Notes under the pieces: generated by a model
The model's input: the letters and a program-made list of their open reading frames with translations, nothing else
The model's database searches: none
What the model was told of the DNA's origin: nothing
Translations under genes and position numbers: made by a program
From: Albidovulum sediminis
GTDB taxonomy: Bacteria > Pseudomonadota > Alphaproteobacteria > Rhodobacterales > Rhodobacteraceae
Reading direction: 5' to 3'
Length of the DNA stretch: 64,000 nt
NCBI RefSeq assembly: GCF_025380365.1
Contig: NZ_JAOCQF010000001.1
Location: 1,662,245-1,726,244 of the forward strand
Shown here: piece by piece, positions 14,857 to 29,838 of the stretch
How positions within the stretch are numbered: position 1 is the first letter of the stretch
How the letters are laid out: every line of letters starts with the position of its first letter

Positions 14857-14936
14857 GCCAAGCCCCGCGAGAAAATCGCAAAAAACCCCTTGCGAGTCAC
14901 CCGCGCCTGGCCTAAACACCGCCCCACGCCAAACGT

Positions 14937-15011
14937 GGCCCGTTCGTCTATCGGTTAGGACACCAGGTTTTCAACCTGGGAAGAGGGGTTCGACTCCCCT
15001 ACGGGCTGCCA
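14937..15011 (+). tRNA. tRNA-Glu (anticodon TTC)
   Basis: A full cloverleaf is seen: acceptor arms GGCCCGT and ACGGGCT, anticodon stem CCAGG/CCTGG with loop TTTTCAA (anticodon TTC at 14970-14972), T-arm AGGGG-TTCGACT-CCCCT, discriminator G and an encoded CCA. A low-GC segment begins directly after it, so it may be the insertion point of a small island. Confidence 0.95.
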
Positions 15012-15212
15012 GTTTTCATCACAATGCGTTGATTTCGCTAGGAAATTTCGGAAGGTAATTCCTCTGCCTAAGAAATACCTAGAGTTTTGCGGGGCACATT
15101 TCGACCCACAGCACCCCCGGAACCGCTCACGAAAACGTGAAGCGCTTAGCGCATGAAGCCGTACGAAAACAGCATGTTCACGAAAAATCTAGCCTCGCAC
15201 GTCTGACGTGCA

Positions 15213-15240
15213 TTGACTGTTAATACGCATAGCGTATATA
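15213..15240 (+). promoter_or_regulatory. Sigma-70-type promoter with operator in the spacer
   Basis: TTGACT (15213-15218) and TATATA (15235-15240) are separated by 16 bases. The palindrome ATACGC-ATA-GCGTAT (15223-15237) occupies the spacer and touches the -10, the usual position of a repressor site. It would drive the NYN gene with a leader of roughly 105 bases. Confidence 0.6.
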
Positions 15241-15309
15241 TGGCCGCATTAAGACCCGTCGGAAACCTGCCCGCCTTGTCGGTCACAGGGGACCGAACCT
15301 AATGACCCC

Positions 15310-15329
15310 GGGGGCGCGAGAGCGTCCCC
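15310..15329 (+). promoter_or_regulatory. GNRA-tetraloop hairpin in the NYN leader
   Basis: GGGGGCGC, loop GAGA, GCGTCCCC: an 8-bp RNA stem with one G-U pair closed by a GNRA tetraloop. It ends 13 bases before the GGAG site of the NYN gene, so it could affect translation or be a binding site for the encoded RNA-binding nuclease. Confidence 0.5.
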
Positions 15330-15350
15330 GTATTCGTTTGTGGAGTACCT

Positions 15351-15983
15351 ATGACGGCAACCCCGGCGCAGCCTGCTAAACCGCTTAGAGTACGCATCTT
15401 CGTAGACTTCTGGAACTTTAGCTTGTCGCTACGTCGTGCGGACAACGGCTTCATGGTCGATTGGCGACCCGTAGGCCCGTTGTTCGCAGCCGAAGCAGGC
15501 AAGCTTGTAGACCCTACCGCGCAAGCGGTGTTTGAGGCCATGCACGTCTATGGGTCGTTTGACCCGAACAAGCCGCAGGACGCAAAGCTAAAGAACTGGT
15601 TCACCAACACCTTGGACCGGATGCCCGGAACCCATGTGGTGCTTGTTGAGCGTCAACAGAAGATGGGCTATCCGAAGTGCCCACAGTGCCAGAGCGAAGT
15701 CACCCATTGTGGATCCTGCAACGCAGACATGCGCGGCACCGAAGAAAAAGGTGTAGATACGCGAATTGTGGCCGACATGATTAGCCTTGCTTGGGCTAAC
15801 GCGTACGACGTAGCCGTACTCGTATCTTCTGACCGCGACTTCGTACCCGTGGCCGACTTCCTACAGACCAAAGGAATCAAGGTCGTACATGGCGCGTTCC
15901 CGCCGAAGGGTAGCAATCTATCTCAAAAGTGCTGGGCCAATTTCAGCATCATCGGGCTAATGCCGCAAATTAAGCGACCGTAG
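15351..15983 (+). CDS. NYN domain (LabA/DUF88-like) protein with zinc-ribbon insert
   Basis: A 210-residue protein of the NYN/PIN-like nuclease fold. Acidic residues typical of the active site are in VDFWN (Asp19), EEKGVD (131-136) and SSDRDF (Asp161, Asp163). Between strands lies CPQC-x6-CGSC (Cys110, 113, 120, 123), a probable zinc ribbon. NYN proteins are metal-dependent RNases, often in RNA processing or phage defence. Codon use and base composition (visibly lower GC) differ from all neighbours and the gene sits next to tRNA-Glu, which suggests transfer. GGAG precedes the ATG. No integrase or partner gene is present, so its role is open. Confidence 0.85.
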   Translation: MTATPAQPAKPLRVRIFVDFWNFSLSLRRADNGFMVDWRPVGPLFAAEAGKLVDPTAQAVFEAMHVYGSFDPNKPQDAKLKNWFTNTLDRMPGTHVVLVERQQKMGYPKCPQCQSEVTHCGSCNADMRGTEEKGVDTRIVADMISLAWANAYDVAVLVSSDRDFVPVADFLQTKGIKVVHGAFPPKGSNLSQKCWANFSIIGLMPQIKRP

Positions 15984-16004
15984 CAATCGTTGCTGCGTTC
16001 GGCA

Positions 16005-16042
16005 TGAAAAAGCCCCGACCCGGTTTGGCGACGGGCCGGGGC
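16005..16042 (-). terminator. Rho-independent terminator after the AtuA/DUF4387 genes
   Basis: Arms 16012-16022 and 16032-16042 pair over 11 bp with one mismatch, 9-base loop. On the minus strand the stem is followed by TTTTT, a classical terminator. It lies about 175 bases beyond the DUF4387 stop and also just past the convergent NYN gene, for which it could act in reverse. Confidence 0.75.
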
Positions 16043-16217
16043 GAGTAGCCGCACGGAACCCCCGCAACGCACGGCAACGCAAGCAAGGCGAATGAGGGTG
16101 CAGAATCCGGGCGGCACCCGCGCCCGCGCTGCACGAACGTCATTGCGGCAGGCGCGGTTGCACCTTCCGGCAACTCCGCGCCACCGGGAACCGGCAGGCA
16201 ACCCCAAGCTCGCCGCC

Positions 16218-16547
16218 TTACGCGGATATGTCCACCTCGACGTCGAGAAACGGCGCGTATTGCTGGGCGCCGAAGATGTCTCCGTCGCCGGCGCTGCCCG
16301 AGGGGCGGTTGCGCAGGATGGTGAACTTGATCGCGTAGGCCGGGTCGTATTCGACGAAATCGGTCAGCCGCGCCGGATCGACGTTCAGGATGCGGCAGAC
16401 GCTGTCGCGCGTCAGCACGCCCGCGCGCTTGACCATCTCGTAGGTGTCACGCTCGCGGAAGATGATGTCGAAGGTGATCTTGTCGGTGCCGGCGTTCTTC
16501 GACCGGATGGTCTTGGCCAGATCGGAAAGTTTCTTGCGGGTGTTCAT
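16218..16547 (-). CDS. DUF4387 family protein (AtuA partner)
   Basis: A 109-residue protein. The sequence begins MNTRKKLSDLAKTIRSKNAG and contains DIIFRERDTYEMVK, the recognisable DUF4387 pattern. In many genomes this family is encoded next to, or fused with, AtuA/DUF1446 proteins, and here it starts eight bases after the AtuA-like stop. The biochemical role is not established. It is the last gene of a minus-strand unit that starts from a sigma-54 promoter at 17951-17966 and ends at the terminator at 16005-16042. Confidence 0.8.
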   Translation of the reverse strand: MNTRKKLSDLAKTIRSKNAGTDKITFDIIFRERDTYEMVKRAGVLTRDSVCRILNVDPARLTDFVEYDPAYAIKFTILRNRPSGSAGDGDIFGAQQYAPFLDVEVDISA

Positions 16548-16555
16548 CGCGCGCC

Positions 16556-17914
16556 TCAGCCGACAACGGCGGTATGGGTGGGGAAAAGCTCCAGCGGGTC
16601 GCTGACCGCCATCGTGTGGTTCAGCGTCCAGCGGTAGGCGGGGCTGGCCTGCATCACCTCGTCGAGCACGAAGGAGACGCCGCCCGCGGTGCCCTTCACG
16701 TCGGGCAGGCGCGCGTAGAACATCTGCCGCGTGCCGGTCATGCAGACCTCCTCGGCCATCTCGCGGGTGGGCGCGACGCCCTGCACCACGACGCACAGTT
16801 CGTGCCCCGGCTTGTCCTTCAGGGGCTCCATCTCGCCCATCACGCCGTTGCGGCCGAAGACGCTGTAGTGCAGTTCCCAGCCGTCGGGGCCGAAGCGTTC
16901 CTCGGTCTGCCGGCGCGCCCAGTCGATCACCGCGTCGACATTGGCGATCGTGTAGGGGTCGCGGATGCCGGCCATGCCGACGAAACGTTCGCCCACCTTG
17001 CCGGAGCCTTCCAGCTTGACCCGGAAATCCTCGGCCGGGACGAAGGCCATGCCGGTCACGCGGGTGGTCTTGTCGCTGACCTGTTCGTAGCGGCAGTCGG
17101 TCATGTCCAGTAGGCCGCCCGCGACATATTCGTGGAACGGGTTGGAGCGTTCGTACATCGCGTGCCCCGCGACCGAGGCGACGGTGCAGCGCTGCCAGGG
17201 TGCCATGGCGGTGACCGACACCGCCTCGGGCGTGATCTCGCCCATGACGGTTTCCTTGGCGCCGTAGGGTTCGGCGCAGAAGGAGGCGCATTCGAGGACC
17301 TTGCCGAGGTAGTAGCTCTGCGCCTCGGGAAACCCCTTGTGGAGCGCGCAGGCCGCGAAGATCGCGCTGTCGGACGACCGGCCGCCGATGATGACGTCGC
17401 AGCCCTCTTCCAGGAGCTTGACGAAGGGATGGACCCCCGCCATCGCGACGACGCGCGAGGTGGCGTCCAGTTCCGCCTCGATCAGGTCCTCGCGCGCGTC
17501 GAGGCCGCGGATGGGAGAGCCGCCGCGGATCTTCGCGCGGACAAGTTCGCGGTCCACCTCGGAATAGAACCAGCCGAGCTTGAAGGGCGCCAGGCCATGC
17601 TTCGCGGCGATGTCGCGGATGATCTGCACATACATGTCGACGCGGCTGTTGCTGCCGGTATCGCCGGCAGACCCGATCAGCATCGGCACACCGATGCGAC
17701 GCGCGGCCAGCAGCATCTCCTCAAGGTCGTGTTCCTGCCAGGCCCGCGGGCTTGCGCAGCTGTCGTTGCCCAGCGGAACCGGGCCGATGTCGTCGCTGCC
17801 GCTGTCGGCGGCGATGAAGTCGGGGCGGGTTTCCACCGCAAGTCGGAAACTTTCGGTCTTGAGGGGCGCAAAGCCCAGGTGCCCGTTCGGGCAGATGATC
17901 CTGATGGACGACAT
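16556..17914 (-). CDS. AtuA family (DUF1446) acyclic terpene utilization-like protein
   Basis: A 452-residue cytosolic protein of the AtuA/DUF1446 family, first linked to acyclic terpene (citronellol) catabolism but found in many other degradation operons. Recognisable blocks are DSGSDDIGP near 37-45, GSAGDTGSN (about 81-89) and GGRSSDSA. No catalytic mechanism is agreed. AtuC/AtuF-type carboxylase genes are absent, so terpene breakdown is unlikely; its pairing with DUF4387 behind a sigma-54 promoter suggests an acid or amide degradation step downstream of the neighbouring importer. AGGAAGA precedes the ATG. Confidence 0.82.
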   Translation of the reverse strand: MSSIRIICPNGHLGFAPLKTESFRLAVETRPDFIAADSGSDDIGPVPLGNDSCASPRAWQEHDLEEMLLAARRIGVPMLIGSAGDTGSNSRVDMYVQIIRDIAAKHGLAPFKLGWFYSEVDRELVRAKIRGGSPIRGLDAREDLIEAELDATSRVVAMAGVHPFVKLLEEGCDVIIGGRSSDSAIFAACALHKGFPEAQSYYLGKVLECASFCAEPYGAKETVMGEITPEAVSVTAMAPWQRCTVASVAGHAMYERSNPFHEYVAGGLLDMTDCRYEQVSDKTTRVTGMAFVPAEDFRVKLEGSGKVGERFVGMAGIRDPYTIANVDAVIDWARRQTEERFGPDGWELHYSVFGRNGVMGEMEPLKDKPGHELCVVVQGVAPTREMAEEVCMTGTRQMFYARLPDVKGTAGGVSFVLDEVMQASPAYRWTLNHTMAVSDPLELFPTHTAVVG

Positions 17915-17950
17915 GTCTTCCTCTCGCGCAGGGCGTGGTACCCTTTCCTA

Positions 17951-17966
17951 TGCGCAAACCGTGCCA
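17951..17966 (-). promoter_or_regulatory. Sigma-54 promoter of the AtuA/DUF4387 unit
   Basis: On the minus strand the sequence is TGGCACGGTTTGCGCA: the -24 GG and -12 GC are at the required spacing, and the seven bases TGGCACG match the consensus. The two Ts before GC are replaced. It ends 37 bases before the AtuA ATG, giving an inferred start near 17940. Confidence 0.7.
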
Positions 17967-18042
17967 GTACCGCGCCAGATTTGCGGCGCCTGCGCAGGAC
18001 GGCCGGGGCGCGCGCGCGCGAGACTCGCGCAGAGGTGTGGGG

Positions 18043-18053
18043 ATCACGCGGCG
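18043..18053. promoter_or_regulatory. Candidate enhancer site for the sigma-54 activator
   Basis: CACGC-G-GCGTG is a perfect palindrome centred about 108 bases upstream of the inferred AtuA transcription start. The same half-sites form a palindrome at a similar distance from the importer promoter (25748-25759). It lies in the gap past the activator gene stop. Confidence 0.55.
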
Positions 18054-18075
18054 TGGTGCCTGCGGAGGGTGCAGA

Positions 18076-19053
18076 TCAGCCCTTCATGAGACCGAGCTTG
18101 ATCATCTGGTGGCGCAGCGCATGGCGGGACAGGCCAAGCAGCCGCGCGGCCTCCTGCGGGTTGCCCGACGCGGCGGAGAGCGCCCGTCCGATCAGGTCGC
18201 GCTGGAACGCCTCGGTGGCAGCGTGATAGTCGGCGGGGCCTTCGGCCGGCGGCGCGGCGGTCTGGCCCGCCCCGCCGGTCACGCTGCGCAGGATGCGGTC
18301 CGGCAGGTGGCGCGGCAGGATCTCGTTCTCGTCCTCGAGGATGAAGATGCGCTCCAGCAGGTTCTCCAGCTCGCGGACATTGCCGGGCCAGCGGTAGCGC
18401 TGGAGGATGTCCTCGGCTTCCGGGGTGAGCCCGCGCACCGACCGGCCGTAAGCCCGGTTGAAGCGCGCGATGAAGTGCCGCGCCAGCGTCAGCACGTCGT
18501 CGCCGCGGTCCCGCAGCGCGGGCAGGTTCACCGCGACCACCTGAAGCCGGTAATAAAGATCCTCGCGGAACCGCCCCGAGGTCACTTCGGACAGCAGCAC
18601 CTTGTTGGTGGCGGCGATGAAGCGGACGTCGACCTTCACCGGCTTGACCGCGCCCACCCGGCGGAACTGCTGCGTGTCGAGGAGCGTCAGCAGCTTGGCC
18701 TGCAGCGTCAGGTCCATCTCGCGGATCTCGTCGAGGAAGACGGTGCCCTGGTTGGCGGCCTCCACCAGCCCCAGCTTGCGGTCCACGGCGCCGGTGAAGG
18801 CACCCTTCTCATGCCCGAAAAGCTCGGACTCGAGAAGGCTCGCCGGCAGGGCCGCGCAGTTGATGTCGACAAAGTCGCGCGCCGCGCGGCTGGACACCTG
18901 ATGGATCATCCGTGCCACAAGGCCCTTGCCGGTGCCGGTCTCGCCGTAGATCAGGACGGTGCGCGTGGGGCTGCGGCCGATCCGGGCCACCAGCCTGCGC
19001 AGGGACTCGATGGCCGGAGAGGTGCCGACCAGTTCATTGCTGTAATCCGCCAT
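18076..19053 (-). CDS. Sigma-54-dependent activator without sensory domain
   Basis: A 325-residue AAA+ enhancer-binding protein. Walker A GETGTGKG is at 37-44, the sigma-54 contact loop GAFTGA at 84-89 is intact, Walker B is VFLDEI (105-110), and a Fis-type HTH lies at about 290-322. It starts almost directly with the AAA+ domain, so there is no receiver, GAF or PAS module; PspF-like activators of this type are controlled by a separate protein or by expression. The usual DEIGE after Walker B reads DEIRE. The gene follows the C45 gene by 39 bases in the importer operon, so it may amplify its own expression. Confidence 0.92.
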   Translation of the reverse strand: MADYSNELVGTSPAIESLRRLVARIGRSPTRTVLIYGETGTGKGLVARMIHQVSSRAARDFVDINCAALPASLLESELFGHEKGAFTGAVDRKLGLVEAANQGTVFLDEIREMDLTLQAKLLTLLDTQQFRRVGAVKPVKVDVRFIAATNKVLLSEVTSGRFREDLYYRLQVVAVNLPALRDRGDDVLTLARHFIARFNRAYGRSVRGLTPEAEDILQRYRWPGNVRELENLLERIFILEDENEILPRHLPDRILRSVTGGAGQTAAPPAEGPADYHAATEAFQRDLIGRALSAASGNPQEAARLLGLSRHALRHQMIKLGLMKG

Positions 19054-19092
19054 TCCGCCTTCCGGGTGCCTGCCCTGCCAGCGCCCGGCCCG

Positions 19093-20154
19093 TCAGCGGC
19101 AGGGCGCCATCGCCTGCCACCGGCCAAGGCAGGGCGTGCCTTCGCTGATCTCCATTTCGCCCAGCCTACACGAATACACGACCGAGGAAATGGTCTCGGC
19201 GCCGTCGTCGCCCGCGCCGTGCTGGCAGATCGGCGCGCCGTCGGGGCCGGGGTGGGTGGACATCAGGCGCTTCGCATCGGCGCGGGTCCAGTCACGGCCG
19301 GGCAGGACGCGGGCGAGGTGATCGAACCGGCTGTGAGAGTTTCCAGCGATCCGGTCGCCGTCGGCACCCAGCGTCTCGTCCCGGCAGGCGGCGGCGGTGT
19401 AGTGGTTGGTGCGCCATTGCAGGCCGCCCTCGGCAATCATCGGACCGCGCGCCGAAAGCTCGACCGAGGCGGTCGCGCCGGAGCGGTCAGCCAGCACCAG
19501 CGTGCCGCCGCCCGCATGGGGCAGGCTGCGGATCATCGCCAGCGCCTCGCCGACCGTCCGCGCCCGCGCCAGAAGGCGCGGCAGCAGGAAGTAGCGCAGC
19601 CAGCCGACGCGGTGGCGGTTGACCGCGACCTGCGTGTCGGCGACCGCCAGCCCCGCGGCATTGATCCCCGAGGACCAGGCCGACAGGCTGCCCAGGCTGC
19701 CAAGGCTCAGCACCTGCCCCGTCGCGATGTCCGGCCCCGCGTGGCGCAGCACGCATTGGATGCCGAGGTGCAGGCCCGAGAAATCGCGGTTCTTGAACAC
19801 CAGCGGGCCCTCGGGGCCCTGCCCCACGGCCACCGCGCTGCATCCCTCGATCAGCGCCGTGCCGCCCTTCATGTCGCGCAGCGTGCCGAGGTGCAGATGC
19901 GCGAAAAGATCGGCCTCGGGCAGGCCGAAGGCATCGGCCACGCCCCGCAACTCCTCAAGCCCCTCGGGGTCGTGCGCGGCGTGAAAGCTCCGCTGCTGCG
20001 CCAGGTAGGCCTCGGCCGCGGCGTCGATCAGGCCGTCGGCCCGGGCCCCATCAACACGCGCCACCGTCGCGCGGCGCACGGTGTCCACCGGGGCCGCGCC
20101 CTGCTGCGCGCGCCCGCGCTCATAGGCGGTTCCGATGGCGGTGACCTCAATCAT
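19093..20154 (-). CDS. C45 family peptidase/acyltransferase (isopenicillin-N acyltransferase-like)
   Basis: A 353-residue Ntn-hydrolase. EGCSAVAV places the nucleophile Cys105 after Gly104, where this family self-cleaves to free an N-terminal cysteine; FKNRDF (120-125) follows at the expected spacing, and TNHY is further downstream. C45 enzymes act on amide bonds of acyl-amino acids, acyl-CoA:6-APA, or related compounds. There is no signal peptide, so it is cytosolic. It overlaps the ABC ATPase gene by ATGA and is thus coupled to the importer, which suggests that it hydrolyses the imported amide or peptide-like substrate. Confidence 0.85.
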   Translation of the reverse strand: MIEVTAIGTAYERGRAQQGAAPVDTVRRATVARVDGARADGLIDAAAEAYLAQQRSFHAAHDPEGLEELRGVADAFGLPEADLFAHLHLGTLRDMKGGTALIEGCSAVAVGQGPEGPLVFKNRDFSGLHLGIQCVLRHAGPDIATGQVLSLGSLGSLSAWSSGINAAGLAVADTQVAVNRHRVGWLRYFLLPRLLARARTVGEALAMIRSLPHAGGGTLVLADRSGATASVELSARGPMIAEGGLQWRTNHYTAAACRDETLGADGDRIAGNSHSRFDHLARVLPGRDWTRADAKRLMSTHPGPDGAPICQHGAGDDGAETISSVVYSCRLGEMEISEGTPCLGRWQAMAPCR

Positions 20155-21155
20155 CGCGCGGCGTCCAGCAGGCTCAGATTCTCGTCCAGCCGGTAGCAGG
20201 CCGCGACATGGCCCGGCCCGACCACCCGGTTTTCGGGGGCTCGCGTCTGGCAGAGCGGGATGGCCAGCGGGCAGCGGGTGTGGAACTTGCAGCCCTTCGG
20301 CGGGTTCAGGGGCGACGGCAGGTCGCCCTGCAGACGCACCCGCGCGCGGTCGCGCCGGGGGCCGACCTCGGGCACCGCCGACAGCAGGCTTTGCGTGTAG
20401 GGGTGGCGCGGGTTGTCCAGAACCTCGGCCACAGGGCCGGTCTCGACGATCTCGCCCAGATACATCACCGCGACCCGGTCGGCGAGATAGCCGATCACCG
20501 AGATGTCGTGGCTGATGAACAGGTAGGTCAGCCCCAGTTCGCGCTTCAACTCCAGCAGGAGCGCGATGATCTGCGCCTGGATCGAGACGTCGAGCGCCGA
20601 GACCGGTTCGTCGCAGACGATGAATTCGGGGTTGGAGACCAGCGCGCGGGCGATCCCGATCCGCTGGCGCTGCCCGCCGGAGAACTGGTGGGGGTAGCGG
20701 TCAAGCTGGTTCGCGCGCAGGCCCACCCGCTCCAGCACGCGGGCGGTGATCTCCCGCGCCTCCTCGCCCGTGGCGATGCCGTGAAGCGCCAGCGGAAGCC
20801 CGACGATCTCGGCCACGGTGCGGCGGGGGTTCAGGCTGGCGTAGGGGTCCTGAAAGATGATCTGCATCCGCCGCCGCATCGCCTTCAGGTCCGGCGGGGC
20901 AAGTGCGGTGACATCGGTTCCGTCAAAGACGACGCGGCCGGCGGTGGGTTCGTGCAGCCGCAGGATGGCGCGGCCGAGCGTGGTCTTGCCGCAGCCGGAT
21001 TCCCCGATCAGGCCCAGCACCTCTCCCCGCTCGACCCGCAGCGACACGTCGTTGACCGCCCGCACGACGCTTTGCCGCGTGCCGGTCAGGCGCTGCGCGA
21101 GCGACCGGCGCCCCTCGTATTGCTTGGTCAGGCCATCCACCTGCAACAGGGTCAT
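20151..21155 (-). CDS. Oligopeptide-type ABC transporter ATPase (DppF/OppF-like)
   Basis: A 334-residue ATPase. Walker A GESGCGKTT, signature FSGGQRQR, Walker B FIVCDEP and the H-loop SHD are all present. The C-terminal oligopeptide extension contains the cysteine cluster CKFHTRCPLAIPLC typical of OppF/DppF, which can hold an iron-sulfur centre in some members. The start at 21155 overlaps the stop of the companion ATPase (ATGA). It drives import by the peptide-type permeases encoded upstream in the same operon. Confidence 0.92.
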   Translation of the reverse strand: MTLLQVDGLTKQYEGRRSLAQRLTGTRQSVVRAVNDVSLRVERGEVLGLIGESGCGKTTLGRAILRLHEPTAGRVVFDGTDVTALAPPDLKAMRRRMQIIFQDPYASLNPRRTVAEIVGLPLALHGIATGEEAREITARVLERVGLRANQLDRYPHQFSGGQRQRIGIARALVSNPEFIVCDEPVSALDVSIQAQIIALLLELKRELGLTYLFISHDISVIGYLADRVAVMYLGEIVETGPVAEVLDNPRHPYTQSLLSAVPEVGPRRDRARVRLQGDLPSPLNPPKGCKFHTRCPLAIPLCQTRAPENRVVGPGHVAACYRLDENLSLLDAAR

Positions 21156-22141
21156 GCCATCTCCTCCAGCCGCAGGCAGCGGGCGCGACGACCCGGCCCG
21201 GCATCCAGCATCGGCACCTCGACCAGGCATTCCGGCCGCGCCAGCGGGCAGCGGGAATGGAACCGGCACTGCGGCGGCAGGCCGACAAGGTCGGGCACCT
21301 GCCCGCGGATCGGGGTCAGCGGCTGCCCCCGGAGCGCCGGGCGCGGGATCGAGGCCAGAAGGCCGCGCGTGTAGGGATGGCGGGGCTGGCCGATCACCTG
21401 GCCTGTCGGCCCCTCCTCGACCACCTGGCCCGCGTACATCACCATGACGCGGTCGCAATGTTCGGCCACCACGCCCAGGTCATGGGTGATGAGGACGACC
21501 GCCATGCCAAGCCGGGCGCGGATATCGGTGATCAGTTCCAGCACCTGCGCCTGGATCGTCACGTCGAGCGCGGTGGTCGGTTCGTCGGCGATCAGAAGCT
21601 TGGGCCGGCAGGCCAGCGCGATGGCGATCATGATGCGCTGCCGCATGCCGCCGGAAAACTCGTGCGGATACTGCCGGAGCCGCGTGTCGGGCGACGGGAT
21701 GCCGACAAGACCCAGCATCTCGACCGACCGTTCCCGGATAGCGGCGCGCCGCGCAAGGCGCCCGGCGGGCAGGGTTTCGTCATGCGCCACAAGCACTTCG
21801 GCTAGTTGTTCGCCCACCGTCAGCGCCGGGTTCAGCGCGGTCAGCGCGTCCTGCATCGTCATCGCGATGTCGCGGCCGCGGATCGCGCGCATCTCCTCTG
21901 GCGAGAGGTCGCGCAGGTTGCGGCCGTCGAAGAAGATCGACCCCTGGGTGACACGTCCCGGCGCGCGCACAAGCCCCATGACGCTGGAAAACGTCACCGA
22001 CTTGCCGGAACCGCTTTCGCCCACGACGCCCAGGCATTCGCCCCGCGACACCCGGAGGTTCACACCGTCCACGGCACGGACCAGACCCGCGCGGGCGGTG
22101 AACTCGGTTTGCAGGTTGGTGACTTCCAGCAGCACACTCAT
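21152..22141 (-). CDS. Oligopeptide-type ABC transporter ATPase (DppD/OppD-like)
   Basis: A 329-residue ATPase with Walker A GESGSGKS, signature FSGGMRQR, Walker B LLIADEP and HD in the switch region. The C-terminal extension again has the Cys pattern CRFHSRCPLARPEC. It pairs with the DppF-like protein as the ATPase heterodimer at the inner face of the membrane. The ATG at 22141 overlaps the DppC-like stop, which makes the operon tightly coupled. Confidence 0.92.
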   Translation of the reverse strand: MSVLLEVTNLQTEFTARAGLVRAVDGVNLRVSRGECLGVVGESGSGKSVTFSSVMGLVRAPGRVTQGSIFFDGRNLRDLSPEEMRAIRGRDIAMTMQDALTALNPALTVGEQLAEVLVAHDETLPAGRLARRAAIRERSVEMLGLVGIPSPDTRLRQYPHEFSGGMRQRIMIAIALACRPKLLIADEPTTALDVTIQAQVLELITDIRARLGMAVVLITHDLGVVAEHCDRVMVMYAGQVVEEGPTGQVIGQPRHPYTRGLLASIPRPALRGQPLTPIRGQVPDLVGLPPQCRFHSRCPLARPECLVEVPMLDAGPGRRARCLRLEEMA

Positions 22142-23031
22142 TCGCTGAACCTCGGGTCGAAGGCATCGCGCAGGCCCTGGCTGGCCACGTTGATGGCCAG
22201 CACCAGAAGCAGGATCGCAAGGCCGGGGAAGGTCGAGACCCACCACGCCTCGAGGATGAAGGCGCGCCCGTCCGACACCATGCTGCCCCAGCTTGCGGTG
22301 GGCGGCTGCACGCCGAGGCCAAGGAAGGACAGCGAGGCCTCGAGGATGATGACGTTGGCCATGCGGATGGTGGAAACCACGATGACCGGCGACAGGATGT
22401 TCGGCAGGATCTCGCGCCACATGATGTGGCGGGGGCCGGCGCCAAGGGCGCGCGCGGCCTCGACGTATTCCAGTTCGCGCACGGCCAGCGTCTCGCCTCG
22501 CACGACGCGGCAGGGGATCACCCATTCCTTGTAGGCGAGCGCCAGGACGATGTTCATCAACCCCGGCCCCATCATCGCCATCAGGCCGATCGCGAAGATG
22601 AGGTAGGGAAAGCCCAGCAGGATGTCGACCACGCGCCCGATCACCACGTCCACCCAGCCGCGGAAATAGCCCGCGGCGAGCCCCGCGAGGATGCCGACGC
22701 CGGTGGCCAGCAAGATCACGGCAACGCCGATGAAGATCGAGATGCGCGCGCCGTAGACGATGCGGGAAAGGATGTCGCGGCCCAGCCCGTCGCAGCCGAG
22801 GGGAAAGGCCCAGTCGCCGCCCTGCACCCAGGCGGGCGGTTGCAGGCGCCGGAACAGGTCGGTGGCATTGGGGTCCTGCGGTGCGATCAGGGGTGCGGCG
22901 ACCGCCATCACCACGAAGGTCAGCACAACGAGGACCGAGGCCATCGCCAGCCGGTTGCGGCGGAAGTCGCGCAGGTTCCGGCGGAACAGGGAATCGGCGC
23001 GGGCGGGCATGGCAAGGGTCGCGTCGGTCAC
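22138..23031 (-). CDS. Oligopeptide-type ABC permease (DppC-like)
   Basis: A 297-residue inner-membrane protein with about six membrane segments: one near the N-terminus (about 30-52), then the binding-protein-dependent transport domain. The EAA loop reads EAARALGAGPRHIMWREILPN, which contacts the ATPases. The N-terminal RNRLAMAS before the first segment is typical of the OppC N-terminal domain. It overlaps both neighbours by four bases and forms the channel with the DppB-like subunit. Confidence 0.92.
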   Translation of the reverse strand: MTDATLAMPARADSLFRRNLRDFRRNRLAMASVLVVLTFVVMAVAAPLIAPQDPNATDLFRRLQPPAWVQGGDWAFPLGCDGLGRDILSRIVYGARISIFIGVAVILLATGVGILAGLAAGYFRGWVDVVIGRVVDILLGFPYLIFAIGLMAMMGPGLMNIVLALAYKEWVIPCRVVRGETLAVRELEYVEAARALGAGPRHIMWREILPNILSPVIVVSTIRMANVIILEASLSFLGLGVQPPTASWGSMVSDGRAFILEAWWVSTFPGLAILLLVLAINVASQGLRDAFDPRFSE

Positions 23032-24035
23032 AGCTTCACCCTCGGATTGAGCACGGTGTAGAGGATGTCGGCGATGAAGTTCAGCAGGACATAGGTCACC
23101 GCGTAGAGCAGCACCGCCGCCTGAACGAGCGGGAAGTTGCGCAGGAAGATGCTTTCCACCACCAGCCGCCCCAGCCCGGGCCAGCCGAACACCGTCTCCA
23201 CGATCATGTTGCCGCCGAGCAGGCTGCCGGTCTCGATCGCCGCGACCGAGACGGTCGGGATCAGCGCGTTCTTCAGCGCGTGGCGGTAAAGGACGCGGCG
23301 GCGCGGCAGGCCCTTGGCCTCGGCGAAGGTGATGTAGTCCTGCCGCATCACCTCAAGCATGGAGGTGCGGGTGACGCGCATCAGGATCGCCGTCATCGGC
23401 AGGCCAAGCGTGATCGCGGGCAGGACAAGATAGCGCAGCGCCTCGCCGAAGGCGCCTATGTCGCCGGCAAGGAGCGTGTCGATCAAGAGGAACCCGGTGA
23501 TCGCGGGCACCTCGCTGGCATAGCCGATCCGGCCCGAGACCGGCAGGATCTGCAGGTGCACGGCAAACAGCATGATCAGCAGGATGCCGAACCAGAACCC
23601 CGGCAACGACACCCCCAGAAGCGAACCGACCGTCGCCATCCGGTCGAAGATGGAGTTCTTGCGGATCGCCGCCAGCACGCCCAGCGGGATCGCCGTGGCC
23701 AGCGCCACGATCAGCGCGACAAGGCTCAGCTCGATCGTCGCGGGCAGGCGTTCGGCGATCACCTCGGCCACCGGGCGGCCGTGATAGAAGCTCTGGCCGA
23801 AGTCGAAGCGCACCGCGTTGGCCACGAACAGGAAGAAACGCTCCACCATCGGACGGTCAAGGCCCAGGTTGTGGCGCAACTCGGCTTCCTGCTCGGGGGT
23901 GATCGCCTGTTCGCCGACCATGATCTGCACCGGGTCGCCCGGGGTCAGCGCCAGCATCACGAAGACGATGAGGCTGACCCCGAGAAGGACGGGGACAAGC
24001 TGGATCAGGCGCTCCAGCAGCTTTCCGAGGCTCAT
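23028..24035 (-). CDS. Oligopeptide-type ABC permease (DppB-like)
   Basis: A 335-residue inner-membrane protein. The first helix (about 10-32) is followed by the periplasmic segment with LTPGDPVQIMVGEQA and GLDRPM, which is a hallmark of DppB/OppB. The EAA-type loop is FAEAKGLPRRRVLYRHALKN. It follows the binding protein gene by 21 bases. Substrate class cannot be read from this subunit; the pairing with a C45 amidase argues for an amide or peptide-like ligand. Confidence 0.92.
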   Translation of the reverse strand: MSLGKLLERLIQLVPVLLGVSLIVFVMLALTPGDPVQIMVGEQAITPEQEAELRHNLGLDRPMVERFFLFVANAVRFDFGQSFYHGRPVAEVIAERLPATIELSLVALIVALATAIPLGVLAAIRKNSIFDRMATVGSLLGVSLPGFWFGILLIMLFAVHLQILPVSGRIGYASEVPAITGFLLIDTLLAGDIGAFGEALRYLVLPAITLGLPMTAILMRVTRTSMLEVMRQDYITFAEAKGLPRRRVLYRHALKNALIPTVSVAAIETGSLLGGNMIVETVFGWPGLGRLVVESIFLRNFPLVQAAVLLYAVTYVLLNFIADILYTVLNPRVKL

Positions 24036-24056
24036 CCCCGCTCCTCCCGGTTCAGG

Positions 24057-25598
24057 TCAGTTCAGGCAGGCGTCGTGCAGGTTGATGCGGCTGTCGGCGC
24101 TGGGCTGCCAGCCGGTCACGCGCCTGGAAACACCGTAGATGTCCTTCGGAACCCAGAGGTAGACATAGGGCTGATCGGCGTTGATCATCATCTCGGCGTC
24201 ACGATACATCGCGCGGCGCTTGTCCACGTCCAGTTCCACCGCCGCCGCATCGAGAAGCGCGTCAAGCGCGGGGTTGGCGTAGCCGGCCGAGTTGCCGCGG
24301 TCGTTGGTCCGGTGCGTGGGCGTGAAGATGTCGAACGGATCGAGCGAGCCGTTGCCCCAGCTGGTGAAGTACATGTCGCCCGACTTCGGCGCGCCCTTGG
24401 TGCGCCACTTGTCGGACAGCTGCGCCCCCTCGCCCACCGCGACGGTGGTGCGGATGCCGGCGTTCGTCAGCATCGAGGCGATCGCCTCGGCGGTGTCCTT
24501 GAACGCCCCTTCGGTGTCCATCGTCACGTCGATCCCGTCGGGAAAGCCCGCCTCGGCCAGAAGCGCCTTGGCTTGTTCCGGATTGTAGCCGACCGAGGGC
24601 AGTTCGCTGGCGCCGAAGGCGGCGGGCGACAGGATGCCGTCGATGGGGGCTGCATTACCGCCCAGGATCTTGTCGATGATCAGGTTCTTGTCGATCGCCA
24701 TCGCGGCGGCCTGGCGCACCTTCACGTCGTCGAAGTATTCGCCTTCCATGTTCATCGCGATGAAGAAGCTGCGGGTGCCGTTTACGGTCATCACCTGCGT
24801 GCCCTCGTTCGCCTCGACCTGCGCGATCGAGAAGGCGGGCAGTTCGTTGATGATGTGCACCTCGCCCGCCAGCAGAGCGGCGACGCGGCTGGCGCTTTCG
24901 GGAATGATCTTGAACACCACGCGGTCGACGCAGGCAGGGCCCACCGGCGGGATGTCGGCGGCGCCGCCATAGTAGTCGTCGAACCGCTCCAGGATCACCG
25001 CGTCACCCTTGCGCCATTCCACCAGCTTGAAGGGGCCGGTGCCGTTTTCGGCCGTGGCCACGCCCTCGTTGCCCATCGCCTCGACCCAGGCCTTCGAAAC
25101 GATCTGCTGGTTGGGCAGCATCGCCGGCAGGATCGGCCAGGGCTCCTTCAGCGTGATCCGCACCGTATCCGGCGCCGTCACCTCGACCGAGGCGATGGGG
25201 CCCATCAGGCCCTGGCGCGGGCTGGTCACGCCCTCGCCCATGCCGTTGTCGAGGACCACGCGGTCAAGGGTGAACTTGACGTCCTCAGCGGTCATCTCGC
25301 TGCCGTCGTGGAACTTGATCCCCGGCCGCAGCTTGAAATCGTATTCGGTGGCCGAAACCTGGGTCATCGATTCCGCGATCTCGGGCACCACCAGCATGTT
25401 CGCGTCCCGCGTCAGCAGGCCGTCGTACATGTTCCGGATGATCGTTTCCGTCTCGCGCTTGCGATGGTTCGCCGGGTCGAGCGTGTCGGCGTCAAGGGTG
25501 AAGCCGACGATCAGATCCTCGGCGGCGACGGCGGCGGGAAAGAGGGTGGGCGTGGCGGCCAGCGCAGTGGCCATCAAGAGACGCGGAAGTGCCTTCAT
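24057..25598 (-). CDS. ABC transporter substrate-binding protein, SBP family 5
   Basis: A 513-residue periplasmic protein with a Sec signal peptide (about 1-25, ending near AVAAEDL). The pattern LDPANHRKRETETIIRNMYD and LRPGIKFHDGSEMTAEDVKF is typical of the DppA/OppA/nickel-binding family 5. It is the first gene of the importer operon, directly behind a sigma-54 promoter, with GGGAGAAAT before the ATG. Family-5 proteins bind di- and oligopeptides, glutathione, opines or acylated compounds; the ligand here is unknown. Confidence 0.92.
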   Translation of the reverse strand: MKALPRLLMATALAATPTLFPAAVAAEDLIVGFTLDADTLDPANHRKRETETIIRNMYDGLLTRDANMLVVPEIAESMTQVSATEYDFKLRPGIKFHDGSEMTAEDVKFTLDRVVLDNGMGEGVTSPRQGLMGPIASVEVTAPDTVRITLKEPWPILPAMLPNQQIVSKAWVEAMGNEGVATAENGTGPFKLVEWRKGDAVILERFDDYYGGAADIPPVGPACVDRVVFKIIPESASRVAALLAGEVHIINELPAFSIAQVEANEGTQVMTVNGTRSFFIAMNMEGEYFDDVKVRQAAAMAIDKNLIIDKILGGNAAPIDGILSPAAFGASELPSVGYNPEQAKALLAEAGFPDGIDVTMDTEGAFKDTAEAIASMLTNAGIRTTVAVGEGAQLSDKWRTKGAPKSGDMYFTSWGNGSLDPFDIFTPTHRTNDRGNSAGYANPALDALLDAAAVELDVDKRRAMYRDAEMMINADQPYVYLWVPKDIYGVSRRVTGWQPSADSRINLHDACLN

Positions 25599-25671
25599 CT
25601 GATTTCTCCCATGTGATCATGCCCCGCTTTCTGGGTGCGTTGGTCCGGTTGGGGCGGACACCCGATGGGGA

Positions 25672-25687
25672 TGCACAATGCGTGCCA
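25672..25687 (-). promoter_or_regulatory. Sigma-54 promoter of the importer operon
   Basis: On the minus strand the sequence is TGGCACGCATTGTGCA. The -24 element TGGCACG is perfect and the -12 GC (in TGTGCA, one base off TTGCA) is at the exact spacing. The inferred transcription start is near 25661, about 62 bases before the binding-protein ATG. Confidence 0.82.
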
Positions 25688-25737
25688 CACCCGGGATGCC
25701 CCCTGACCCCCGTTCGGCCGATGTCCGCAGCCGGCTC

Positions 25738-25759
25738 GCGTGATATTCACGCCGGCGTG
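25738..25759. promoter_or_regulatory. Candidate enhancer cluster for the sigma-54 activator
   Basis: Two overlapping perfect palindromes: GCGTGA-TAT-TCACGC (25738-25752) and CACGC-CG-GCGTG (25748-25759), with one more CACGC at 25769-25773. Centres are about 84 and 92 bases upstream of the inferred start, the normal zone for enhancer-binding proteins. The same half-site is repeated at 18043-18053. Confidence 0.6.
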
Positions 25760-25767
25760 TTTGACCC

Positions 25768-27090
25768 TCACGCCCCGCGACGGCGCTTCGCGCGCGGCGG
25801 GATTCCGGCAAGCGTCCGGTACTTCGCGACCGTGCGCCGCGCCAGGGCCGCCCCCTCGGGCAGGAGCCGTGCGGCAATCGCGCTGTCCGACAAGGGGCGC
25901 GCGGGATCTTCGGCGGCCACCATGGCGCGCATGCGTTCCAGCACCGCCTGAAGCGACAGCGGGTCTTCCTGTTGTCGTGCCAGCGGGACCGGCGCGCACA
26001 TCAGGTCGCGCAGGCACATCGTGTGCCGCGGGGTCCTGAGGAACAGCGCCGCCGTCACCCGGCTGACGGTGCTCCGGTGCAGCCCCGTCGCGGTGGCGAG
26101 GTCGTTGATCGTCAGCGCCGCCAGCGGGCCCTGCCCGCGCAGGTGCGCATCCTGCCGGGACACAATTTCGGCGGTGATCGCCAGCACCGTCGCGTGACGA
26201 CGTTCCAGCGCTTGAACCAGCGCCTTCGCCTCGCGCAGGGCCCCGGGAGCGACCCCTGACTGGGCCGGCCCGGCCGCCAGCCTCAGCTGCGGGGTTGTCC
26301 CGGCGTTCAGCTCGACCAGCCAGCCTTCCCCGTCGCGGCGCAGGATCAGGTCCGGGGCGCGCGCCACGGCAGGGGCCTGGCTGAAGGCGGCGCCGGGCTT
26401 GGGGTTCATCCGCCTGAGCGACCGCGCCATGTCCTGAACCGTGTCGGCATCGCAGCCGCAGGCCAGGGCCAGTGCGTCGATGTCGCCCGTGGCAAGAAGG
26501 CGCAGATTGTCCAGCAGGCGGTCGAAGGCGGGGGTCAGCAGCCCCTGCTCCTCGGCCTGAAGCCGAAGGCATTCGGCCAGCGAGCGGGCAAAAAGCCCGG
26601 TCGGCTCAGCGCCCTGCAACTGCCGCAGCACCCTTTCGGCGCGATCCGGCGTCACCCGCGCCTCCGCGGCGATCTCCGACAGGTCGGCACCCAGCCAGCC
26701 GGACGGCTCCAGCGCGCGCAGGAACGCCTGGGCGATCTGCCGGTCCCCCGGATCGCGCACCAGAAGCGGCAGTTGTGCCGCGACATGGGCAATCAGGCCG
26801 GGGTCCCCGTCGGCCACGCGCTCCGCCTCCAGGCCGCTGATGCCGGCCTGCGGCACCAGGGGCGGGCGCGATCTGCGCTCCGGCGGGGGGGCGACCTGCC
26901 GCATCAGCCCAAGCCAGGCTTCAGGTTCGGCGCCAGTTGCCGGGGCCAGCAGGCCGACTTCGGCCTGAAGGTCCGCGAGACGGGCCGAAAGCTCTGTATT
27001 GGACAGGGACAGAAAGCCGATCGCTTGCCGCAGCACCGGTGTCATGGCCAGTTGGCCGCGTTGCTTCAGCCCCAGGCCCAGTTCAAGCAC
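25768..27090 (-). CDS. rpoN: RNA polymerase sigma-54 factor (additional paralog likely)
   Basis: A 440-residue sigma-54. Region I (1-45) has the Gln/Leu-rich pattern GLGLKQRGQLAMTPVLRQAI that contacts the activator. The core-binding domain follows, then the HTH with TGLHRSTVSRV, and the RpoN box ARRTVAKYRT at 417-426 (the canonical final Glu is Thr). It lies immediately upstream of the importer operon on the same strand, away from the lptB-rpoN-hpf setting of the housekeeping gene. Rhodobacter species carry several specialised rpoN copies, so this is probably a dedicated one. Confidence 0.92.
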   Translation of the reverse strand: MLELGLGLKQRGQLAMTPVLRQAIGFLSLSNTELSARLADLQAEVGLLAPATGAEPEAWLGLMRQVAPPPERRSRPPLVPQAGISGLEAERVADGDPGLIAHVAAQLPLLVRDPGDRQIAQAFLRALEPSGWLGADLSEIAAEARVTPDRAERVLRQLQGAEPTGLFARSLAECLRLQAEEQGLLTPAFDRLLDNLRLLATGDIDALALACGCDADTVQDMARSLRRMNPKPGAAFSQAPAVARAPDLILRRDGEGWLVELNAGTTPQLRLAAGPAQSGVAPGALREAKALVQALERRHATVLAITAEIVSRQDAHLRGQGPLAALTINDLATATGLHRSTVSRVTAALFLRTPRHTMCLRDLMCAPVPLARQQEDPLSLQAVLERMRAMVAAEDPARPLSDSAIAARLLPEGAALARRTVAKYRTLAGIPPRAKRRRGA

Positions 27091-27262: not shown

Positions 27263-28834
27263 TCAGTACCACATGTCCGGCATCGCGGCCTTGCGGCGTG
27301 CCATGAAGTCGAGAAGCGCCTCGTCCGTGGCCTCGTCGAGCGGCGGGGCCACATACTCGCGCAGGAGCTTCTTCCAGCGGGCATTGGCGCGCTGGGCATG
27401 GTCGATACCGCCCTGTTCGTCCCAGGTTTCCCACGGCTGGTTGTCGTCCAGCGCGCTGTCCCAATAGGCGGTTTCGTAGTGCCGCAGCGTGTGCTGGGTG
27501 CTGAACAGGTGCTGGCCGGGCCCAAGCTCTGCCAGCGCATCGAAGCCCAGCGTGTCCTCGTTCACCGCCATCCCGTCGAGATAGGCATGGAGCGCGCCGC
27601 ACATGTCGGTGTCCATCACCAGCTTCTCGTAGGACATCGACAGGAGCCCGTCGAGGAATCCCGCCGAGTGGAGCACATAGTTCGCGCCGCCCTGCACCGC
27701 AGACATCATCGACATCATGCTTTGCTGCATCGCCTGCCCGTCGGGCAGCTTCGACGTGCTGAAGTTCCCCGCGCAACGCAGCGGCAGGTTCAGGCGGCGG
27801 GCAAGCTGGCCCATCGCCAGCGATCCGATCGCCGGTTCCGGCGTGCCGAAGGTGGGCGAGCCGGAGCGGAGCGACATCGAGGAGAAGAACGAGGCGAGGA
27901 TCGCGGGCGCGCCGGGGCGGACAAGTTGGGTCAGCGCACAGGAGGCCATGCTTTCCGCCAGACCCTGCGCCACCATACCGGCGGTGGTCAGCGGCGCAAC
28001 CGCCCCACCAAGGAGGAATGGGAGGTGGATCGAGCCCTGATTAGCCGCCGCATAGGCGCGGATGCCCGCAGTGGTGACGCCATCGAGGACCAGCGGCGAG
28101 GTGGTGTTGAAGTTGCCCATCACCACGCAGTTGCGGTCGGTGAACTCCGTCCCGAAGACGATCCGCGCCATCTCCACGCTGTCCTCCGCCCGTTCGGCGG
28201 CGGTGATCGAGCCGAGGAAGGCGCGGTCGGAATAGCGGATGTGGGAATAGACCATGTCCAGATGGCGCTTGTTCACCGGCACGTCGGTCGGCTCGCAAAC
28301 CGTGCCGCCGGAATGGTGCAGCCAGGGCGATGACTGGGAAAGCTTCACGAAGTTGCGGAAGTCCTCGATCGTGCCGTAGCGGCGCCCGCGGTCGAGGTCC
28401 ATGACGAAGGGCGACCCGTAGGAGGGGGCGAAGACCACGTTCCGGCCGCCGATCCGAACGTTGTTGGCGGGATTGCGGGCGTGCTGGGTGAACTCGGCCG
28501 GGGCGATCTTCAGGATCTCGCGCAGCATGCCGGGCTCGAACCGGATCCGCCAGACATCGGCGGATTGTGCGGTCACCTCGGCCCCGGCCTGCCGGTAAAG
28601 GCGCATCGCCTCGGCGTCGTCGCGCAGCTCGATGCCGATCTCGGCGAGGATGCGGTCCGCCGTCGCCTCGATGGCGGTCAGGCTTTCGTCCGACAGGATG
28701 TCGTAGGTCGGGATGTTCCGCACGATGTAGGGGCGGTGGATGCCCGGTTCGACGCCGGCACGGGCGTCGCGGCGCTGCTGGCGCCCTCCGCGCTGGCGCC
28801 GCGCCTCGTCCCGCATGGTGTCGCCGTCTGCCAT
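27263..28834 (-). CDS. Trimethylamine methyltransferase family (MttB-like), no pyrrolysine
   Basis: A 523-residue cytosolic protein of the MttB/DUF superfamily of TIM-barrel methyltransferases. The frame is open throughout, so the amber codon for pyrrolysine found in true TMA methyltransferase is absent. Such non-Pyl members demethylate quaternary amines such as glycine betaine, proline betaine or carnitine, passing the methyl group to a corrinoid protein. No corrinoid protein, MtrH-type or reactivase gene lies in this window. The gene is divergent from a LysR gene 92 bases away, which probably controls it, and is followed by rpoN. Confidence 0.85.
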   Translation of the reverse strand: MADGDTMRDEARRQRGGRQQRRDARAGVEPGIHRPYIVRNIPTYDILSDESLTAIEATADRILAEIGIELRDDAEAMRLYRQAGAEVTAQSADVWRIRFEPGMLREILKIAPAEFTQHARNPANNVRIGGRNVVFAPSYGSPFVMDLDRGRRYGTIEDFRNFVKLSQSSPWLHHSGGTVCEPTDVPVNKRHLDMVYSHIRYSDRAFLGSITAAERAEDSVEMARIVFGTEFTDRNCVVMGNFNTTSPLVLDGVTTAGIRAYAAANQGSIHLPFLLGGAVAPLTTAGMVAQGLAESMASCALTQLVRPGAPAILASFFSSMSLRSGSPTFGTPEPAIGSLAMGQLARRLNLPLRCAGNFSTSKLPDGQAMQQSMMSMMSAVQGGANYVLHSAGFLDGLLSMSYEKLVMDTDMCGALHAYLDGMAVNEDTLGFDALAELGPGQHLFSTQHTLRHYETAYWDSALDDNQPWETWDEQGGIDHAQRANARWKKLLREYVAPPLDEATDEALLDFMARRKAAMPDMWY

Positions 28835-28926
28835 GATCCCGCCTTTCGATAAGCCGAAATCAGGCTAGTTTCTCGTTTCTGCGCTGTAATGCTGGAAAAT
28901 TCTCACAAACTTGATAAGCATGATTT

Positions 28927-29838
28927 ATGGACAATCTGCGCCGCCTGCTGCCTTCGATCAACAGCCTTGTCGTTTTCGAGGCAGCCGGGCGCCTGTCGAG
29001 CTTCACCGCCGCCGCGCGCGAACTGCAGATGACGCAGGCCGCGGTTTCCTACGCGATCAACCGGCTTGAGGATCACCTCGGCGCCGCGCTGTTCCTGCGC
29101 GAACACCGCCGCGTGCGGCTGAGCGAGGCGGGTGAGCGGTTTCATGCCGACGTCTCGATCGGGCTGTCGCACATCCATCGGTCGGCGCAGGACCTGCGCG
29201 CGGTCGCGACGGGCGGGCATGTGACGCTGTCCTGTTCCACCGCCTTCGCGGCCTTCTGGATGGTGCCGCGCATGGCACAGTTCCGAGAGGCGTTGCCGCA
29301 CATCGACCTCAGGATCCAGACGGCGGATCGCGACCTCGACCTTGTGGGCGAAGGCATCCTCCTTGCCGTCCGCGGCGGCGATCCGGACGACTGGCCGCAG
29401 TACAACGCCGAACCGCTGGCGGCCGAGGAAATCTTTCCGGTCTGCGGGGCGGGCTACCTGGCCAACCGCCAAGCCCCCGAAGATGCGGCCGACCTTCTGG
29501 CGCACCACCTGATCCACCTGGAGGAGCCGTTCCGGTCGGCCGCGACGTGGCGCGACTGGTTCGCCGCGGCGGGGATCGAGGGGCGGCGCGTGCCGAAGGG
29601 CCTGCAGATCAACGACTACGTGCTGGTCGTGCAGTCGGTGATCGCCGGTCAGGGGGTGGCGCTTGGCTGGCGCCACCTGGTCGAGGACCTGGTGAGCACG
29701 GGCGTCTTGGTGCGCCTGACCGGGCACATGCTCTCCACCGGCATGAACTTCCACGTCATCTGGCCGCGCGAGGCGGCACTGACGCGTGCGGCGCAGGAGG
29801 TGCGCGACTGGCTTCTGGAGCAGCGGGACGCGCCGTGA
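28927..29838 (+). CDS. LysR family transcriptional regulator
   Basis: A 303-residue regulator. The N-terminal winged HTH (about 8-66) reads FEAAGRLSSFTAAARELQMT followed by QAAVSYAINRLEDHLG, close to the GcvA-type pattern. A periplasmic-binding-like effector domain follows. It is transcribed divergently from the MttB-family gene over a 92-base gap, the classic LysR arrangement, so the methyltransferase is the likely target and a methylated amine the likely inducer. AT-rich sequence just before the start could hold the shared operator. Confidence 0.9.
   Translation: MDNLRRLLPSINSLVVFEAAGRLSSFTAAARELQMTQAAVSYAINRLEDHLGAALFLREHRRVRLSEAGERFHADVSIGLSHIHRSAQDLRAVATGGHVTLSCSTAFAAFWMVPRMAQFREALPHIDLRIQTADRDLDLVGEGILLAVRGGDPDDWPQYNAEPLAAEEIFPVCGAGYLANRQAPEDAADLLAHHLIHLEEPFRSAATWRDWFAAAGIEGRRVPKGLQINDYVLVVQSVIAGQGVALGWRHLVEDLVSTGVLVRLTGHMLSTGMNFHVIWPREAALTRAAQEVRDWLLEQRDAP

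Follow-up and report, generated by a model that had tools for sequence, protein, structure and literature searches.

Sigma-54 (RpoN) normally acts as a general factor common to many activators. The closest described systems are those of Cereibacter sphaeroides, where, in the portion of the published account available to us, each of the studied RpoN copies works with an activator of its own (RpoN1 with NifA, RpoN2 with FleQ and RpoN3 with AprX), RpoN3 and AprX drive xrpA, and RpoN4 is given no role (PMC11999139). The present work concerns a ten-gene unit (minus strand, 16218-27090) in a 64,000-nucleotide stretch of the genome of Albidovulum sediminis, hereafter the window, in which a gene for a divergent sigma-54 heads the genes of a peptide-type importer, a C45 amidase, a sensorless AAA+ activator, an AtuA-family protein and a DUF4387 protein. 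This region is very likely a self-contained sigma-54 regulon for one nutrient, as judged from its gene content and synteny, from the degree to which promoters and sites are conserved, and from co-occurrence and homologies; from these we infer binding, looping, exclusivity, positive feedback, the substrate with its chemistry, and the direction of history.

The locus resembles the C. sphaeroides pairs in the presence of several RpoN copies and, putatively, of a dedicated activator with its own gene set (PMC11999139). It differs from them in two respects: AprX has a receiver domain, unlike the activator in the window, and the accessible part of the account describes no operon that holds rpoN, activator and targets together (PMC11999139). 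A preliminary description of this DNA had called private sigma-54 copies rare outside nif and flagellar genes; the RpoN3-AprX pair has already been described as one (PMC11999139). For catabolic operons, no dedicated RpoN-activator pair was found among the open-access matches listed, subscription journals being mostly outside the search. Within the same bounds of open-access literature, we also found no described system of this composition. The locus would be a new form of the known dedicated pairing, in which a catabolic operon bears sigma factor, activator and targets together.

Synteny, promoters and activator sites of the unit

The order of transcription is rpoN, the solute-binding protein (SBP) gene, two permease genes, two ATPase genes, the C45 gene, the activator gene, atuA and the DUF4387 gene (Table 1). 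Gene positions and strand agree with the preliminary description, and Pfam confirmed its gene content. From the SBP gene through the activator gene, adjoining genes overlap or lie at most 40 bp apart, and the activator gene (18076-19053) is located, as had been claimed, inside the importer unit that its product would activate.

Synteny across the family was compared in a sample of 394 genomes, 125 of which were matched by the RpoN protein at E 1e-20, and 40 of the best RpoN loci were fetched. Order and strand of the ten-gene unit, with the rpoN, SBP, C45 and activator association anticipated earlier, are kept in 15 of these 40 loci in addition to the window, the other 25 having no such unit; 14 of the 15 are whole and one is cut by its contig after the first permease gene, with the remainder on another contig. 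The C45 protein was found in 19 of the 394 genomes, and the 16 with at least 49% identity are exactly the rpoN-linked set, window included (hereafter the carriers). Two of the remaining three (L086 and L088) have the activator and no linked rpoN, and the third (L087) has neither. A class sample of 385 genomes held 11 C45 carriers, the window's genome among them; of the nine loci fetched from the other ten, two (L089, L090) show the metabolic core and the activator without linked rpoN, and seven show no activator.

Candidate promoters were scored as matches to TGGCACGNNNNTTGCA over 12 positions, with GG and GC obligatory. A site of 9-12 matches precedes the SBP gene in 16 of 16 carriers, 79-104 bp from the start codon, and a site of 10-12 matches precedes atuA, again in 16 of 16, at a distance of 47-57 bp. 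Since the promoters are kept in 32 of 32 instances across the 16 genomes, a chance match is excluded, and it was conservation that decided for the atuA promoter given here over an overlapping alternative 11 bp further upstream, which also scores 10. Eight loci with the metabolic core and no activator show no site of at least 9 before the SBP gene or atuA, one of them being too short to show the SBP gene. The two sigma-54 promoters proposed to open the importer and AtuA units are accordingly conserved in orthologous loci, as is one of the proposed palindromes.

The activator consists of an AAA+ domain from residue 8, with the GAFTGA loop, and a Fis-type helix-turn-helix (HTH), with no regulatory domain, in agreement with its earlier description as sensorless. 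Its recognition helix, [ST]RHALRHQ, is kept almost throughout the aligned relatives. We take it to be a bacterial enhancer-binding protein (bEBP) of the sensorless PspF type, which it resembles in having AAA+ with GAFTGA and an HTH and in lacking an N-terminal sensor; it departs from PspF itself in reaching 267 bits on the pspF model, whose cut-off is 444, and in having no PspA-like gene among the unit's ten.

A search of the upstream sequences for palindromic motifs by expectation maximization (EM) yielded YGCGYGAAWTTCRCGCR, which occurs in helical register upstream of both promoters. When each locus was scored with a model that excluded it and retained its near relatives, the best palindrome reached 9.6-24.6 bits in 34 of 34 promoters; the window's own sites, GGCGTGAATATCACGCG and TGCGCGAGTCTCGCGCG, score 16.5 and 16.6 bits with their own locus left out. 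A second site of at least 6 bits, 19-23 bp further upstream, occurs in 19 of the 34, the window not being among them. Outside the training set, most site centres cluster around 47, 58, 70, 80, 102 or 114 bp upstream of the promoter. For 88 sites the phase vector at 11 bp is 0.61, a value reached in 0 of 2,000 uniform draws, and this spacing of about 11 bp places the sites on one helix face. Of the rpoN-linked promoters outside the training set, 39 of 39 have the -24/-12 site and 38 of 39 have both elements, as do 50 of 61 promoters of unlinked units or cut contigs; among random anchors in the linked and unlinked loci, true sites included, both elements occur at 43 of 7,900.

Of the enhancer palindromes first proposed, the element near -84 at the importer (GGCGTGAATATCACGCG, 25753-25737) is conserved, but the CACGC/GCGTG pairs near -92 and -108 were dropped: CACGCCGGCGTG (25748-25759) and CACGCGGCGTG (18045-18055) are present in the window, but a comparison by eye with its two nearest relatives showed neither to be exactly preserved there. 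The conserved palindrome on the atuA side (TGCGCGAGTCTCGCGCG, 18031-18015) had not been named. We consider it extremely unlikely that a repressor or some other regulator, rather than the activator, is what binds the palindromes. The motif is GC-rich, with three sites of at least 14 bits elsewhere in the window, and one activator-less locus (L097) has a palindrome of 10.7 bits 263 bp before atuA; the other activator-less loci, however, reach at most 7.7 bits before the SBP gene or atuA, and of the six promoters for which no activator was seen, one has both elements; it belongs to L248, where the contig stops short of the position expected for the activator gene. Where the activator is present, the sites recur in distant gene orders, phased to the promoter.

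In the mechanism that we propose, the linked RpoN would load RNA polymerase at the two -24/-12 promoters, and the activator would bind YGCGYGAAWTTCRCGCR upstream of each of them through its Fis-type HTH, contact RpoN via the GAFTGA loop by looping of the DNA, with sites in approximately 11-bp phase, and open the promoter with ATP. Promoter 1 would then give the importer and the C45 amidase together with the activator itself, and promoter 2 the AtuA/DUF4387 enzyme.

Table 1. Features of the unit in the window, in order of transcription
Feature	Position	Strand	Evidence
Unit-linked sigma-54 (RpoN), 440 aa, divergent	25768..27090	-	Pfam activator-interacting, core-binding and DNA-binding domains; NCBIfam
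Predicted activator site of importer promoter, GGCGTGAATATCACGCG	25737..25753	-	EM palindromic motif, centre 58 bp before T of TGGCAC
-24/-12 promoter of importer/C45/activator operon, TGGCACGCATTGTGCA	25672..25687	-	11/12 consensus positions; counterpart in 16/16 carriers
Family-5 solute-binding protein (SBP)	24057..25598	-	Pfam SBP_bac_5, 1.4e-84
Importer permease, BPD_transp_1 with N-terminal domain of B type	23028..24035	-	Pfam; kept gene order
Importer permease, BPD_transp_1 with OppC_N	22138..23031	-	Pfam; kept gene order
Importer ATPase, OppD/DppD-like	21152..22141	-	Pfam ABC_tran and oligo_HPY; NCBIfam OppD/DppD models under cut-offs
Importer ATPase, DppF/OppF-like	20151..21155	-	Pfam ABC_tran and oligo_HPY; NCBIfam DppF/OppF models under cut-offs
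C45 autoproteolytic N-terminal nucleophile (Ntn) amidase/acyltransferase	19093..20154	-	Pfam AAT/C45; NCBIfam C45_proenzyme; alignment
Sensorless AAA+ enhancer-binding protein, GAFTGA loop, Fis-type HTH (helix SRHALRHQ)	18076..19053	-	Pfam; alignment
Predicted activator site of atuA promoter, TGCGCGAGTCTCGCGCG	18015..18031	-	Centre 57 bp before T of TGGCAC
-24/-12 promoter of atuA-DUF4387, TGGCACGGTTTGCGCA	17951..17966	-	10/12 consensus positions; counterpart in 16/16 carriers
AtuA-family protein, CmlA homologue	16556..17914	-	Pfam AtuA; PDB 9erq chain A
DUF4387 protein, CmlB homologue	16218..16547	-	Pfam DUF4387; PDB 9erq chain B

Units with and without linked rpoN beyond the family

A scan of named genomes with the C45 alignment gave 79 loci, 20 of which had too little upstream sequence and were set aside, leaving 59 usable. 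Since rpoN lies on the unit's strand in 29 of the 31 from Rhodobacterales and in 3 of the 28 from other or unplaced lineages, the proposal that rpoN is part of the unit holds for Rhodobacterales but not everywhere. The three linked outsiders are a Hoeflea metagenome-assembled genome (MAG), whose unit falls among those of Pseudotabrizicola, and two unplaced alphaproteobacterial MAGs; the two unlinked Rhodobacterales are a MAG whose unit falls among those of Stappia (L211) and a Boseongicola MAG in which the genes are rearranged (L236). Two labels of the unit tree are in error: L215, with a divergently oriented rpoN, is counted as linked, and L222, where the contig end truncates rpoN, as unlinked.

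Unlinked units were found in Rhizobiaceae, Stappia, Microvirga, Acetobacterales, Rhodoferax, Polaromonas and others, with activator, promoters and palindromes present and gene orders that vary. Among 61 promoters of unlinked units or cut contigs, 56 have the -24/-12 site and 50 have both elements, and the 17 checked genomes with an unlinked unit have one RpoN each. Outside Rhodobacterales, the activator, sites and promoters would presumably use the general RpoN of the host. Of the 394 genomes sampled from the family, 253 show no sigma-54 match; the other 141 have one, above cut-off in 130. In Rhodobacterales, where many genomes give no sigma-54 match, rpoN would have become fixed beside the unit. 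These distributions are most simply read as those of a unit that predates the linkage, rpoN having been attached to it in a lineage often without sigma-54.

In Paenochrobactrum gallinarii, one of these 17 genomes with an unlinked unit, the only RpoN found (L215:1123-2484, minus strand, 454 aa) is encoded divergently just upstream of the SBP gene, and inspection by eye showed a transposase-like reading frame after rpoN; this is possibly an independent linkage to the unit. The unit was also seen on a 1.38-Mb plasmid of Ciceribacter thiooxidans (L085) and in two MAGs assigned to Gammaproteobacteria, of Saccharospirillum (L225) and Arenimonas (L240), locations which suggest transfer or, for the MAGs, misbinning.

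In a further group (L086, L236, L237, L241, L251 and L253) the C45 and activator genes come first. No -24/-12 site of score 9 was found in seven promoters from five of these loci, nor in L086. GAFTGA is lost in L086, L236, L237, L241 and L251, where the recognition helix [ST]RHALRHQ is retained, and L253 has GTFTGA. The idea that loss of the loop tracks loss of RpoN held only partly: the genomes of L086 and L236 lack RpoN, but those of L237, L241, L251 and L253 have it, beside a lost loop in the first three. Units of this kind are candidates for a switch away from sigma-54.

The linked sigma-54 and the extent of its proposed regulon

The linked RpoN has the activator-interacting, core-binding and DNA-binding domains of Pfam (29, 137 and 130 bits, respectively), all above cut-off, and falls under the cut-off of the NCBIfam rpoN equivalog TIGR02395 (259.3 vs 277.35 bits); because all three sigma-54 domains are present, we regard it as a divergent member of RpoN despite the missed cut-off. 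It is an extra copy, as the preliminary description had it, since contig C14 of the same genome encodes a second RpoN with 35% identity over the aligned part. This second protein (L272:6888-8102, minus strand) shows no activator-interacting domain at E 1e-8, and its gene is about 2.5 kb away from one for a Branch/DUF5927 glycosyltransferase.

When linked units are compared with the window, RpoN has 40-76% identity, the lowest of the ten genes, as against 68-91% for the SBP; RpoN evolves fastest of the unit's genes yet keeps its place. The Pfam DNA-binding domain scores 131-179 bits in the 16 linked RpoN proteins vs 203-240 bits in the RpoN of the 17 genomes with unlinked units. In the RpoN protein tree, the 16 linked copies form a group of 14 and a separate pair. 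Genome G051, which we take to be that of C. sphaeroides, has four RpoN copies, none of them among the linked RpoN, and no C45 match.

The linked rpoN is the only sigma-54 found in nine of the 16 carriers. It is highly improbable that another, general RpoN drives the operon and that the linked copy is a passenger. The window's genome and six other carriers do have a second RpoN, and the 17 genomes without rpoN on the unit's strand show the same promoters and activator beside a single RpoN; yet no other RpoN was found in the nine sole-copy carriers, and a passenger would not be expected to remain linked and intact over so many genera.

Another alternative, which we judge unlikely, is that the linked RpoN is a general sigma-54 lying beside the operon and serving nitrogen, flagellar or other genes as well. 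Proteins of the bEBP class at E 1e-25 or better were all read in seven of the nine sole-copy carriers and partly in G012 and G114. In five of these genomes (G152, G353, G168, G129 and G279; 13 proteins) only the unit's activator has G[AS]FTGA, but in two others (G315 and G074) a second GAFTGA protein leaves room for wider use. A check for a sole-copy rpoN serving nitrogen genes found nifH above cut-off in just one of the 16 carriers, which has three RpoN; flagellar genes were not searched. The adjacency of rpoN in 29 of 31 usable Rhodobacterales loci, despite the divergence of RpoN, also argues against a general role. A strict -24/-12 pattern gave 36 sites in six genomes and its reversed control gave 35, which means that strict sites are not in excess genome-wide. 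Thirty of the 36 were inspected, and with a palindrome motif that was trained on the unit's sites, ten of them, all belonging to the unit, have a palindrome of at least 12 bits and the other 20 have at most 5.3 bits.

A sigma-54 promoter on rpoN itself was considered and rejected, none being consistent: upstream of rpoN there is no conserved -24/-12 site, and a palindrome of at least 12 bits occurs in just 4 of 48 loci, duplicates included.

Several points weigh against a self-contained regulon with its own sigma factor. Given the results just described for its upstream region, rpoN seems to lie outside the feedback loop. The conservation and phase figures count related sequences as independent, and the genomes are mostly drafts, in which a second rpoN may have been missed. 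Sole-copy carriers G315 and G074 have one further GAFTGA protein each; the window's genome has, besides its second RpoN, two other GAFTGA activators, and private use is for that reason not shown there. The strict pattern misses weaker true promoters, the window's atuA promoter included, so that a two-promoter regulon is supported and not proven. A single clade of linked RpoN is not rejected (approximately unbiased test, p-AU 0.108), and a single origin is thereby compatible with the tree and not shown by it. Among the promoters of unlinked units, 11 of 61 fail, including both of L229 and of L245 and the atuA promoters of L215, L250 and L255, and L088 is a clear counter-example, since with a GAFTGA activator and one RpoN in its genome it shows neither promoter nor palindrome before the SBP gene or atuA.

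Enzymes, flanking genes and biological meaning

The AtuA-family protein matches chain A of PDB 9erq with E 1.1e-74 over residues 4-442, and the DUF4387 protein matches chain B with E 1e-22 over residues 5-106. Both are homologous over near full length to the two chains of 9erq and 9evf, crystallised proteins deposited as CmlA/CmlB, for which citramalate lyase is the depositors' name. No mention of DUF4387 was found in the open-access literature. The C45 protein agrees with the autoproteolytic C45 acyltransferases/hydrolases: it scores 149 bits on the NCBIfam model C45_proenzyme (cut-off 85), its nucleophile Cys105 is invariant in 21 of 21 aligned relatives, and Gly104 is present in at least 90% of the 21; no solved relative was found by sequence search at E 0.01. 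The closest matches of the SBP, under the family cut-offs, are to proteins of the GsiB, AgaA and peptide types.

The likely chemistry, judged from these homologies, begins with import of an amide-linked compound, which the C45 enzyme would hydrolyse. A CmlA/CmlB-like lyase would then split the resulting hydroxy-acid in an aldol-type reaction, with small acids such as pyruvate and acetate as the products.

Flanking genes were considered as a clue to the substrate and dropped, since no Pfam family was common to the ten scanned, three without a Pfam match having been left out of the comparison. Upstream of rpoN, the stretch 27263-29838 holds a gene of the trimethylamine methyltransferase (MTTB) family and a divergently oriented gene for a LysR regulator; MTTB had no match in the 40 fetched RpoN loci. 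On the other side of the unit, GC content falls to 0.61-0.62 at 14500-16499, vs 0.75 and 0.68 in the flanks. This stretch, in which a tRNA gene (14937-15008) is followed by one for a NYN-domain protein (15351-15983), has the look of a short piece of foreign DNA inserted at the tRNA.

For the biology of the family, we give even chances to the view that sigma-54 has been reduced to an operon-specific factor, a catabolic unit with a sensorless activator having captured rpoN, with the sole sigma-54 of some species serving two promoters and with P. gallinarii as a second and independent capture. The association of AtuA/DUF4387 with a C45 amidase and a peptide-type importer narrows the search for the substrate. 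The unit would represent a natural minimal system in which one sigma-54 and one sensorless activator serve two promoters, found in genomes with no other seen use of sigma-54, and may offer a clean test case for the retention and loss of sigma-54, for the co-evolution of RpoN with its activator, and for what a sensorless bEBP responds to.

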